DNA of 29,121 nt from a virus. The notes beneath the pieces are model-generated. The model worked only from the letters and a program-made list of their open reading frames with translations, was not told the DNA's origin and made no database searches. A program made the position numbers and the translations under genes. The stretch covers positions 1-29,121 of the IMG/VR virus record IMGVR_UViG_3300025601_000084; one strand, 5' to 3'. The stretch's first letter is position 1, and the number at the start of each line of letters is the position of its first letter. Shown piece after piece: positions 54-26,577 of this stretch.

Positions 54-271
54 TGAGGGTAACAAGAGAAGACGAATTAGCCATGGCTTACAGCCGGGGG
101 CTAGACGACGGGGTTGAGTTCGGACATAGTCTGCCACGCAAAACCAGGAAAGAGAAAAGAGCCGAGAGGTGCGACCACCGCGTTCCAGCCGGCGCTATCC
201 CCGAAAGCTCACACGCTTGTTGTGTGCATAGTGTCAGAAGTAGTCTCGGAATGGTTAGGAAGTGGGTTTGA
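53..271 (+). CDS. small hypothetical protein
   Basis: A 72-residue frame whose ATG overlaps the preceding TAA (TAATG) and whose TGA ends one base before the kinase ATG at 273, consistent with a tightly packed phage early-type operon. The N-terminal half is acidic (REDELAMAY, DDGVEFGH) and looks protein-like. The C-terminal half is rich in Arg, Cys and Ser and is less convincing, so the true gene could be shorter or frameshifted. I do not recognise the family. An alternative is that part of this stretch belongs to an N-terminal extension of the kinase, but that frame has no conserved look. Confidence 0.45.
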   Translation: MRVTREDELAMAYSRGLDDGVEFGHSLPRKTRKEKRAERCDHRVPAGAIPESSHACCVHSVRSSLGMVRKWV

Positions 272-272
272 A

Positions 273-1181
273 ATGAGAAAACAAGTATTCGTACCGAGAG
301 GTTTACCGGGCTCCGGCAAAAGCACATGGGTAGACATATACACGGGAGCGCCGAATGTCGCACGGATTAGCAACGACGACCTAGCGCCCATGCTGTACGG
401 CAGGCCCAAGGGGCAAGACGTTTTCAGCAAAGAGTCGGGCGCGACGCTACACCGCCTTCGTATTGCGATGCTCACAGCTTTGCTAGAAGACCCCGCCATC
501 GACAGGGTTTTTATTGACAACACTAATCTCTCCATCCGTACCGTCAAGTCTCTGTATGAGGTAACGCGGAGGGCGGGCGCTGAGTTTGTTGTCAACGACG
601 AGTTCCTTCTAGTTGACGTCGAAGAATGTATCCGCCGTGACGCAGAGCGCGAATACCCGGTGGGCGAAGACGTCATTCGCAAGATGGCTAAGCAGGCAAA
701 GCTCCTCAAGCCCTGGACCAACGGCGACGAACCCGACATTCAGCCCTACGACAACGAACAGCAGTTGCCCGAAGTGATTATCTGCGACATTGACGGCACG
801 ATTGCACGCATGGTGAACAGAGGGCCATACGAACTAGACAAGGTCTACACCGATGAGCGTATTTTGGCCGTGACCGACCTCCTGGAAAGTTTAGATGCAG
901 AACAGGACATAATCTTCCTGTCCGGCAGGAGCGAAGAATCCAGGGACGCTACTGAGGCTTGGCTTGATTGGAACCTCCGGGGAGGCGAGTGCCAGGGTCT
1001 TCACATGAGGGCAAAAGGCGACAACAGGCCCGACTGGATTGTGAAGTACGAACTATTCCAGAAGCACATCGCTGGAAAGTACAAGGTCCGGTTTGTACTC
1101 GACGACCGAGACCAAGTAATCCACTTGTGGCGCAGACAACTCATGCTGCCCACATTCCAAGTAGCAGACGGGAACTTCTAA
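273..1181 (+). CDS. pnk: T4-type polynucleotide 5'-kinase/3'-phosphatase
   Basis: A 302-residue protein matching T4 Pnk (301 residues) in length and domain order. The N-terminal kinase has a P-loop GLPGSGKST at residues 10-18. The C-terminal HAD-type phosphatase has the DxDGT nucleophile motif (D172, D174) followed by an RGPYELDK stretch as in T4 Pnk. The last 30 residues (VLDDRDQV, then a WRR and a QVA-G-F ending) also track the T4 C-terminus. The family phosphorylates 5'-OH ends and removes 3'-phosphates or 2',3'-cyclic phosphates from nucleic acid, and in T4 repairs host-cleaved tRNA together with RNA ligase. No RNA ligase lies in this window. I chose ATG 273 because AGGAAG lies about 10 bases upstream and because the frame before it (from 114) does not resemble the family. 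Function confident; biological substrate inferred. Confidence 0.93.
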   Translation: MRKQVFVPRGLPGSGKSTWVDIYTGAPNVARISNDDLAPMLYGRPKGQDVFSKESGATLHRLRIAMLTALLEDPAIDRVFIDNTNLSIRTVKSLYEVTRRAGAEFVVNDEFLLVDVEECIRRDAEREYPVGEDVIRKMAKQAKLLKPWTNGDEPDIQPYDNEQQLPEVIICDIDGTIARMVNRGPYELDKVYTDERILAVTDLLESLDAEQDIIFLSGRSEESRDATEAWLDWNLRGGECQGLHMRAKGDNRPDWIVKYELFQKHIAGKYKVRFVLDDRDQVIHLWRRQLMLPTFQVADGNF

Positions 1182-25142: not shown

Positions 25143-25176
25143 AGGGAATGGACGGTTTCGACGGCAGGATAATCCC
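25125..25176 (+). repeat. 52-bp direct repeat, copy A
   Basis: Starts CGGGCAGGTTTTG, then a T-run, then GGGAATGGACGGTTTCGACG and ends GATAATCCC. It matches copy B at 25266-25317 in 50 of 52 positions (G/C at position 13, G/A at position 44). The inner GGACGGTTTCGAC is reminiscent of the 5' end of tmRNA genes, but nothing else of a tmRNA is present. Confidence 0.9.
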
Positions 25177-25204
25177 TCACCGTTTGCTTGGCGGTGGGGG
25201 TTTT
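25174..25204 (+). terminator. terminator-like hairpin after copy A
   Basis: CCCTCACCG (25174-25182) pairs with CGGTGGGGG (25192-25200) with one wobble, then TTTT. It overlaps the end of repeat copy A and precedes the second small promoter. Confidence 0.6.
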
Positions 25205-25218
25205 CCCATGTCCGGGGG

Positions 25219-25227
25219 TGCTACACT
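25219..25227 (+). promoter_or_regulatory. extended -10 promoter of a tiny transcript
   Basis: Plus strand TGC-TACACT, predicting a start near A25234. Only about 50 bases lie before the next terminator, so the product would be a very short RNA or an attenuated leader. Confidence 0.45.
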
Positions 25228-25239
25228 TGTGTTACTAAC

Positions 25240-25283
25240 ACCTGCCCCTCTTCCCTTAATGGGTACGGGCAGGTTTTCTTTTT
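25240..25283 (+). terminator. Rho-independent terminator (copy B)
   Basis: CCTGCCC (25241-25247) pairs with GGGCAGG (25267-25273), with an inner CCC/GGG stem in the loop, followed by TTTTCTTTTT. The 3' arm and T-run belong to repeat copy B, whereas the 5' arm differs from copy A, so the hairpin has been kept although its partner sequence changed. Confidence 0.8.
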
Positions 25284-25317
25284 AGGGAATGGACGGTTTC
25301 GACGGCAAGATAATCCC
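25266..25317 (+). repeat. 52-bp direct repeat, copy B
   Basis: Second copy of the element at 25125-25176, 141 bp further on. After its final GATAATCCC comes a small GC hairpin (CCCG-CACG-CGGG, 25315-25326), as a hairpin also follows copy A. It lies between the second HNH gene and terS. Confidence 0.9.
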
Positions 25318-25340
25318 GCACGCGGGGTCAGGCCGGACTG

Positions 25341-25820
25341 TCACTTAGGTGGCTGGTCGTAAAGCTCAATAATCTCTTTTGCCCACGCCACAGCATCCTC
25401 GACTCTTATTCCCGTTGGCTGAGGCTTGACCCAAAGTTCCAGATTTTCTATCCGGTTGTCATCTTTAACGCCATTAATGTGATGCACATTCTCTGTCTTT
25501 GTCAATTCTCTGCCCAAGTAATCCTCCATGACAAGAACGTGGTGAAACTTGTACTTTGATTTGTTGCCATCCGCAAAGGGAATCCTGACCATTAGGTAGC
25601 CTCTTGCGTGACTGATTTGCCCGCCTTTCCAGTTTGGGTTCTTGTCCCAAGCGCGCGAAAAGCAATCATTGCAAGCTTGTGATTTTCTTTGCTTGAGACG
25701 ACCGCATACTACGCAGGGAGTTTTTAGGGACTCTTTCCTGCATTCCGGACATTTAGAATGTCGGCTGCTGGGCTTGTATTTCTGGAGGCACTCTAAGCAG
25801 GTTCTTTCCACATAAGGCAT
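25341..25820 (-). CDS. HNH endonuclease with zinc-finger N-terminus
   Basis: A 159-residue protein. The N-terminus has Cys pairs C8-x2-C11, C24-x2-C27, C36-x2-C39 and C50-x2-C53, two probable zinc ribbons. The C-terminal half carries the HNH_3-type pattern: KFHHVLVMEDYLGREL (H93, H94), then NVHHINGVKDDNRIENLEL (112-129). It is probably a metal-dependent DNA nickase or endonuclease of the homing type. HNH proteins beside the terminase also assist packaging in HK97-like phages, so its position before terS leaves both roles open. TGG-TAGAAT lies six bases before ATG 25820, with no ribosome site. Confidence 0.85.
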   Translation of the reverse strand: MPYVERTCLECLQKYKPSSRHSKCPECRKESLKTPCVVCGRLKQRKSQACNDCFSRAWDKNPNWKGGQISHARGYLMVRIPFADGNKSKYKFHHVLVMEDYLGRELTKTENVHHINGVKDDNRIENLELWVKPQPTGIRVEDAVAWAKEIIELYDQPPK

Positions 25821-25835
25821 AGTTTCATTCTACCA
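25821..25835 (-). promoter_or_regulatory. extended -10 promoter, leaderless, for the HNH gene
   Basis: Minus strand TGG-TAGAAT (25835-25827), then GAAACT, then ATG at 25820. This is the best match to the shared pattern in the window. Confidence 0.6.
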
Positions 25836-25921
25836 CCCTCCACGCGCCGAGTTCGACTCTCCACATTTCCACTAGGTTCCTGTACCCGATAAAGTTAGCT
25901 GTGGACGAAACGTGCCAATAC

Positions 25922-26109
25922 CGTACCAATTTTGGTACGTTTGTGACACTTATGTCACATATGTACCCAACTAGGTACAAATATAGCTTTATTGCTATAC
26001 AACAGGAATATAGCTTTATTGCTATACAACACGTTCGGGTAATTGCCTTGTTCCGCTGTCAGCCGAACACGCTCATTTGCCGAACCATCAACTCTCAGTT
26101 TGTAGTTGA
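25922..26109. promoter_or_regulatory. palindrome-dense control region between diverging gene arms
   Basis: In under 200 bases lie: CGTACCAA/TTGGTACG (25922-25939), a perfect TGTGACA-CTTA-TGTCACA (25942-25959), TGTACC/GGTACA (25962-25979), a tandem repeat with an internal dyad (25980-26031), GTTCGG/CCGAAC (26033-26038 and 26063-26068, third half-site 26080-26085) and TCAACT/AGTTGA (26088-26093, 26104-26109). No protein gene lies in 25821-26154. Leftward and rightward genes diverge from it, so operators for one or more phage regulators, or an iteron-type origin, are plausible. Confidence 0.65.
25980..26031. repeat. two tandem 25-bp repeats, each with an inner dyad
   Basis: AATATAGCTTTATTGCTATA plus CAACA occurs at 25980-26004 and again at 26007-26031, identical copies with a period of 27. 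Each contains TATAGC-TTTATT-GCTATA, a perfect 6-bp inverted repeat. Tandem operator or iteron character. Confidence 0.9.
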
Positions 26110-26139
26110 CTCACTCCCCTAGCGGCGCGCCCCAAATTG

Positions 26140-26154
26140 TGGTAGCTTGGCGCC
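26140..26154 (+). promoter_or_regulatory. extended -10 promoter, leaderless, for the rightward arm
   Basis: Plus strand TGG-TAGCTT (26140-26148), then GGCGCC, then ATG at 26155. The hexamer is weaker than the others, which would suit a regulated promoter downstream of the palindrome cluster. Confidence 0.45.
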
Positions 26155-26577
26155 ATGAACACTAAACAAGAAGCAGTAAACGACGCCTGGGCTCTCTACG
26201 AAGAAAGCCTGGACCTGATGACCGTAGCCCTCTACAGAACCCTCGAGCACCCGCACGACAGCGTCGCAGAAACCGTACTTAGAAACTGTCGCGACTTGAC
26301 ACACCATTATCTATCGGTCGCCGTGGAAGCCTTTGGGGCACTACACGAAGAAAACGCCCTCATCTCCGAGTACAAGAAAATCAACCAAGAGGTCCTCGCC
26401 TGGGAAGCAGAAGTACGCGGCTACGGGCTCTCCGAAGCCCAAGAAGGCTACTACCAGACAGCGCTCAAAAACAGGGATAGCGCCATGGAAGCATTGCGAG
26501 TCCTCTTGGGCATTACGCGCCTAGTCGAAATTGTGTACGCCGAAGAAAAAACACAAGTCAGCAAAGTGCCCGCCTGA
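26155..26577 (+). CDS. hypothetical helical protein, first gene of the rightward arm
   Basis: A 140-residue protein, apparently all helical, with regularly spaced hydrophobic residues (AWALYEESLDLMTVALYRTL, then HHYLSVAVEAFGALHEENALI) that suggest a four-helix bundle. No catalytic motif or family is recognised. It is the first gene after the palindrome-rich region and ends in a TGATG overlap with the next gene, so it heads an early-type operon. Confidence 0.65.
   Translation: MNTKQEAVNDAWALYEESLDLMTVALYRTLEHPHDSVAETVLRNCRDLTHHYLSVAVEAFGALHEENALISEYKKINQEVLAWEAEVRGYGLSEAQEGYYQTALKNRDSAMEALRVLLGITRLVEIVYAEEKTQVSKVPA

Follow-up and report, generated by a model that had tools for sequence, protein, structure and literature searches.

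Tandem 18-bp dyads in near-exact 20-bp register, a putative operator array, adjoin a split TLD-only tmRNA gene in a virus genome and in part recur in unrelated phages

The divergent junction at 25821-26154 of the window (the whole 29,121-nt stretch of DNA analysed, an IMG/VR virus record), which lies between an HNH gene (25341-25820, minus strand) and orf26155 (plus strand), contains five dyads of a single plan, each of 18 bp with perfect 6-bp outer arms around a 6-bp centre (6-6-6). The dyads start at 25922, 25942, 25962, 25982 and 26009, i.e., at steps of 20, 20, 20 and 27 bp, with 2-bp linkers separating the four dyads in 20-bp register. We propose, giving the idea about as much credence as doubt, that they could be operators in tandem, bound cooperatively by the dimers of a regulator; from the sequence we infer that a protein binds here, that it is a single cooperative protein and that a promoter is what it controls. 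The dyads are the following.

25922-25939, no strand: D1, CGTACCAATTTTGGTACG; arms extendable to 8 bp; few changes in L148, L150, L151 and L244
25942-25959, no strand: D2, TGTGACACTTATGTCACA; arms extendable to 7 bp; identical in L148, L151 and L244, one change in L150
25962-25979, no strand: D3, TGTACCCAACTAGGTACA; final element of the cassette shared with other phages; identical in L148, L150 and L151, one change each in L244 and L008
25982-25999, no strand: D4, TATAGCTTTATTGCTATA; window lineage only, missing from the L148 group
26009-26026, no strand: D5, exact copy of D4, within the 27-bp tandem repeat

The arms of D1-D5 (CGTACC, TGTGAC, TGTACC, TATAGC and TATAGC, respectively) have a common form, YRTRNC, with T fixed at position 3 and C at position 6. 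All inverted repeats that a sequence-only reading had listed for this region are present where it placed them, as is its 27-bp-period tandem repeat, which consists of two identical 25-nt copies (25980-26004 and 26007-26031) of the last dyad and its flank and thereby yields D4 and D5. Five of the listed dyads are real and of the same 18-bp kind. The other two, GTTCGG...CCGAAC (26033-26068, 24-nt loop) and TCAACT...AGTTGA (26088-26109, 10-nt loop), lie outside the register at chance level and were not counted because about 0.8 dyads with arms of at least 6 bp are expected by chance in this region. A CRP-like reading of D2 (TGTGA...TCACA) was also rejected, the gap being 8 and not 6. The exact 20-bp register and the common arm form point to one lattice of sites instead of the several unrelated palindromes for several proteins that had been suggested; that description recorded the dyads themselves and missed their common length, the register and the adjoining split tmRNA gene, which is cut down to the tRNA-like domain (TLD-only).

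Dinucleotide shuffling of 25821-26154 (5000 replicates) gave on average 0.075 dyads of this plan and never more than 2, versus 5 observed, and the three observed pairs at 20 bp have no counterpart in any shuffle. The remaining 29 kb holds eight 6-6-6 dyads, versus approximately seven expected (1 per 4096 positions), and the YRTRNC form, scanned with zero mismatches, has one further match in the window and another two in the 18-kb extension described below; the array sites themselves have no other copies elsewhere in the genome. There are more than the two similar dyads at a regular, helically phased spacing by which a tandem array would be recognized, and the 20-bp register places all dyads on nearly one helix face.

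The closest phage record to the large terminase (TerL) of the window is Clavibacter phage CN1A (49%), which makes an actinobacterial host likely; the phage probably infects planktonic actinobacteria. The minus strand carries late genes and the plus strand early-type genes. A near-identical contig, G001 (L002), prolongs the plus arm by ~18 kb and encodes a primase, ERF, SSB, a helicase, a WhiB-like protein and an RNA ligase. No repressor-like domain or gene was detected among the 20 window proteins scanned with Pfam, in agreement with the earlier suggestion that the regulator is encoded elsewhere. In temperate phages the gene for the cognate repressor or activator usually, though not always, adjoins its sites. 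The extension encodes a 100-aa helix-turn-helix (HTH) protein (G001:791-1093) in addition to the WhiB-like one (G001:10279-10941), neither of which could be linked to the dyad sites. The genes adjoining the array, orf26155 and orf26577, have no family match, so that a new regulator might be encoded there, and given that the contigs are fragments, a missing regulator gene is weak evidence. Several other features of this genome were observed. A polynucleotide kinase/phosphatase (window 114-1181, plus strand) and an RNA ligase-like gene (G001:225-794, minus strand) together make up an RNA-repair pair. Over the window and the G001 extension, GATC is nearly missing (2 observed, whereas trimer counts predict 121) and no GGTACC occurs where 7 would be expected, which suggests restriction pressure from the host.

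Conservation of the dyads in other phages, which the sequence-only reading had put forward as a check, was borne out for D1-D3. We scanned 2.9 million viral contigs with exact patterns, such that divergent arrays would escape. D3 together with the start of D2 occurs in six contigs: L114 and L115, which are the two near-identical copies; L149, a relative that is the same contig as L008; and L148, L150 and L151. A scan for three dyads in register (GTRNC-N6-GNYAC) adds L244, and three in-register dyads of this form are confined to these phages among the 2.9 million viral contigs. In 84,980 genomes the three-dyad pattern had only five matches, all of them unrelated simple repeats; DNA similarity searches of 50,697 phage and 72,556 plasmid records revealed no credible look-alikes, and the single matches that the exact D4 sequence has elsewhere among viral contigs were taken as chance.

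L148, L150, L151 and L244 represent another phage group, unrelated to the window phage, in which D1-D3 recur, centres included. Apart from spurious matches over the cassette itself, the larger ORFs of L148, L150 and L151 match nothing in the window or the extension, and the L148 capsid protein shares 62% identity with its counterpart in Pontimonas phage phiPsal1. The methyltransferase of the extension is common to L244 and phiPsal1, some tail-end and lysis proteins are common to phiPsal1 and the window, and a 65-residue protein is common to L244 and the extension; on this basis, the phages probably share hosts. The alignment of D1-D3 spans 62 columns with 96% mean identity. The centres are as conserved as the arms, and that of D3, TAGTTG, is invariant in six sequences including L008. 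Variable columns number 8 of 58 in D1-D3 versus 11 of 47 in the adjoining spacer, a difference that is not significant (Fisher p = 0.22). The in-register array is missing from all TerL relatives L005-L031, of which L008 alone has a recognisable, degenerate form (local score 45 versus a shuffle maximum of 30); the tandem hairpins of L009 are a resemblance only, differ in sequence and were not counted.

The dyads of both phage groups belong to a larger unit. Homology between the window and L148 starts at GTGCTAYACTTG (window 25218) and stops right after D3, beyond which none was found (27% identity over 81 nt). This cassette and its surroundings comprise the following elements.

25218-25979, plus strand: cassette that, leaving aside the HNH insert, is common to L148, L150 and L244; promoter-like start GTGCTACACTTG, T-run leader hairpin, mini-tmRNA, 47-nt spacer, D1-D3
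25285-25340, plus strand: 5' part of the mini-tmRNA; 5' strand of the acceptor, GGGAATG, GGTTTCGAC D-loop, P2 stem and T-stem start ...GGACTG (from CM R1 and the L148 alignment)
25849-25871, plus strand: 3' part of the mini-tmRNA; T loop, 3' side of the T stem and 3' strand of the acceptor
25341-25848, minus strand: 508-bp insert that interrupts the mini-tmRNA in its T stem (TG|GAG), with the HNH gene at 25341-25820 (minus strand)
25144-25214, plus strand: second, decayed mini-tmRNA copy, a repeat; 5' half recognisable, T arm lost (CM R1, 25.2 bits)

The RNA gene of the cassette is a tmRNA reduced to its tRNA-like domain, with a 7-bp acceptor, the GGUUUCGAC D-loop, a T arm and a single short stem that replaces the entire tag region. 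All features of a TLD-only tmRNA are present in L148, L151, L244 and phiPsal1 (CM R1, 79-82 bits), with no tag frame, and L148 and L024 score above gathering with the Rfam tmRNA model RF00023. In the window only partial CM matches were obtained and no intact mini-tmRNA gene, the flanks of the insert still being able to pair (TGGAG with CTCCA at 25859-25863, and GGGAATG with CATTTCC at 25864-25870). D1-D5 are perfect in the window although the mini-tmRNA gene is split by the HNH endonuclease gene. A T-loop intron occurs in bacterial tmRNA (PMC11915505); in contrast, the HNH insert of the window is at a different place and is no intron, the 508-bp insert having no Rfam match to a group I intron at gathering or at E up to 5.

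TLD-only tmRNAs are widespread in IMG/VR viral contigs: the pattern is present in at least 120 of them, and at least 82 distinct copies have the full 7-bp acceptor (L018, L024, L148 and L152-L269). Covariation across 47 aligned copies is 0.587 versus 0.154 when shuffled. The isolate phiPsal1 (MG835450; L276 3005-3083) carries one upstream of its capsid gene, where no feature is annotated, and ARAGORN calls no tmRNA in L148, L150, L151 or L024. The downstream flanks of the 82 mini-tmRNAs do not generally have tandem dyads; hence the array is no general part of the RNA. Furthermore, the array occurs without the mini-tmRNA in L008, the mini-tmRNA occurs without the array in L024 and phiPsal1, and in the window the array is intact beside a broken RNA gene, which together argue that the array is an independent cis-element.

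Several promoter-like sequences border or overlap the dyads.

25920-25941, plus and minus strands: extended -10-like sequences, TGGTACGTT (plus, 25933-25941) and TGGTACGGT (minus, 25928-25920), both overlapping D1; consensus match only
26140-26155, plus strand: predicted leaderless-type promoter of orf26155, TGGTAGCTT
25835-25827, minus strand: predicted leaderless-type promoter of the HNH gene, TGGTAGAAT

The leaderless-type arrangement recurs, being seen at 25835-25827 and 26140-26148 of the window and in the TerS upstream regions of relatives; in L005, L009, L012, L014 and L016, GGTAGAAT or TGGTAGAAT/TGGTAGCTT precedes the start codon by ~6-9 nt upstream of TerS. In other relatives (L007, L010 and L013, and L008 at ~755-775), repeats resembling GTTACCAAATCGTTAT and TGTCAAGCCGACACGCCG are present in many copies upstream of the terminase genes.

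Under the operator hypothesis, each 18-bp dyad would be a putative site for one dimer of a regulator of the HTH type, and successive dimers, two helical turns (20 bp) apart on the same DNA face, would bind cooperatively, such that the bound array would control transcription leaving the intergenic region. Extended -10-like sequences of both strands overlap D1, so that a regulator bound to D1-D3 would prevent or redirect initiation there. D1-D3 terminate an exchangeable cassette that otherwise consists of the TLD-only tmRNA, and the window lineage kept the array and extended it with D4 and D5 despite the splitting of the mini-tmRNA by the HNH gene. We prefer the operator hypothesis because of the one-face register, the independence of the array from the RNA and the -10-like overlap at D1. 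It is also favoured by the fact that none of the 5000 shuffles reaches four dyads and all five have YRTRNC arms, by the conservation of the centres at the level of the arms, as with protein contact or a bend, and by the confinement of the in-register triple to these phages. Conversely, the operator hypothesis is weakened by arms that differ among dyads yet are perfectly symmetric within each, which is unusual for the degenerate sites of one protein and more like a pairing constraint. It is further weakened because the array of the L148 group, located between the mini-tmRNA and the major capsid gene in the same direction, is at no divergent junction, because the sites have no other genomic copies and no regulator gene is tied to them, and because D1-D3 are not significantly more conserved than the spacer.

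The sequence-only reading had proposed protein-binding sites or RNA structures at the divergent junction, and both kinds of explanation retain support. The main rival is that the dyads are a hairpin cluster with which the mini-tmRNA transcript ends and which halts RNA polymerase or shields the 3' end, a possibility that we regard as rather unlikely but worth serious attention. The cassette runs from a promoter-like sequence to the exact end of D3, where a self-contained transcription unit would have its terminator. Folding of either strand is much stronger than in shuffled sequences (z = -3.9 for the minus and -3.8 for the plus strand), and perfectly symmetric arms that change from dyad to dyad are in keeping with pairing. 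Clusters of short hairpins have been proposed as terminators that lack U tracts (PMC8355165). However, no dyad is followed by a T run, and no intrinsic terminator (a G+C-rich stem with a T run) is found in 25821-26154. Compared with the proposed hairpin-cluster terminators (PMC8355165), the array has AT-rich stems without compensatory change, and the function would be a predicted one. Across four distinct sequences, none of the 18 pairs is altered on both sides and four are broken, which weakens the RNA explanation; an argument from late-strand G.U pairs was dropped because L150, L148 and L244 have uncompensated breaks. The loops are conserved like the stems, and the array persists and has even grown where the mini-tmRNA is split, besides occurring without one in L008.

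We consider it improbable that the dyads are a recombination target or conserved joint at which the cassette is swapped, each dyad with its arms and 6-bp centre being similar to the inverted core at which a tyrosine recombinase acts. Such a role would agree with a cassette that is common to unrelated phages and has its limit at D3. Nevertheless, the scanned proteins of the window and extension yielded no integrase, such a core is not built as a series of several different sites, and ordinary recombination also leaves homology at a limit. An origin of replication with iterons, the alternative named in the sequence-only reading, is very improbable: the region is intergenic, contains repeats and is AT-richer than its surroundings (0.44 GC at 25750-26000), but there is a single direct repeat pair (D4/D5, one duplication of D4) where several iterons would be expected, no adjacent initiator gene and no change of GC skew at the site, and the primase, SSB and recombination genes are many kilobases away in the extension. 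A chance cluster without function, which the location between genes and the absence of D4 and D5 from the other phage group might suggest, is hardly credible, being contradicted by the shuffles and by conservation between unrelated phages.

Tandem phage operators are already well known. At those of temperate phages, neighbouring repressor dimers bind cooperatively. Similar to lambda OR and the pR/pL operators of 186 CI, the array consists of adjacent, evenly spaced dyads, each ~17-20 bp long, that are flanked by divergent or promoter-bearing segments; it differs from them in having no adjoining repressor gene, a strict 20-bp period with 2-bp linkers and arms that differ more, and in recurring in unrelated phages beside an RNA gene. 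The sites of the P2 Ogr/Delta activators have the form TGT-N12-ACA. By analogy, these are 18-bp dyads that D2 and D3 fit; unlike them, the array has tandem sites and includes D1, D4 and D5, which misfit, and no Ogr-type gene is present among the scanned proteins. In coliphage 186, CI acts as a high-order multimer on five distinct operators (PMC7708051). The literature searched contained no example of differing dyads in a strict 20-bp array that is both conserved in unrelated phages and linked to a TLD-only tmRNA.

That literature names one phage with a TLD-only tmRNA, mycobacteriophage DS6A (PMC4131195, PMC11915505). The mini-tmRNA next to the array in L148 and L244, like that of phiPsal1, which lacks the array, resembles the DS6A molecule in being a TLD without a tag frame, whereas here it resides in a shared cassette with dyads and, in the window, is split by the HNH gene. 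According to Mao et al. (2009), as cited in PMC4131195, a TLD-only molecule inhibits tmRNA. The mini-tmRNA likely interferes with host ribosome rescue. Tentatively, and with more doubt than belief, we hypothesize that the dyads and the TLD-only tmRNA might be one mobile regulated cassette, in which a decoy RNA would disable host trans-translation and the array would be its own control element, either an operator or a 3'-end hairpin cluster, and which would be exchanged among phages of planktonic actinobacteria that are otherwise unrelated. A regulatory array kept in unrelated phages, down to its exact spacing and sequence, would be a control element that can be transferred, and it offers a precise target for finding the regulator in phages of abundant aquatic actinobacteria, and the commonness of TLD-only tmRNAs in viral contigs makes phage interference with ribosome rescue directly testable.

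A hairpin directly upstream of the mature 5' end of the mini-tmRNA, e.g., in L157, L162, L172, L181, L192, L204 and the window (25260-25284), is seen in 41 of 79 cases versus 442 of 1580 random places. This leader hairpin, which would have to be transcribed through, is followed by a T run in some copies.
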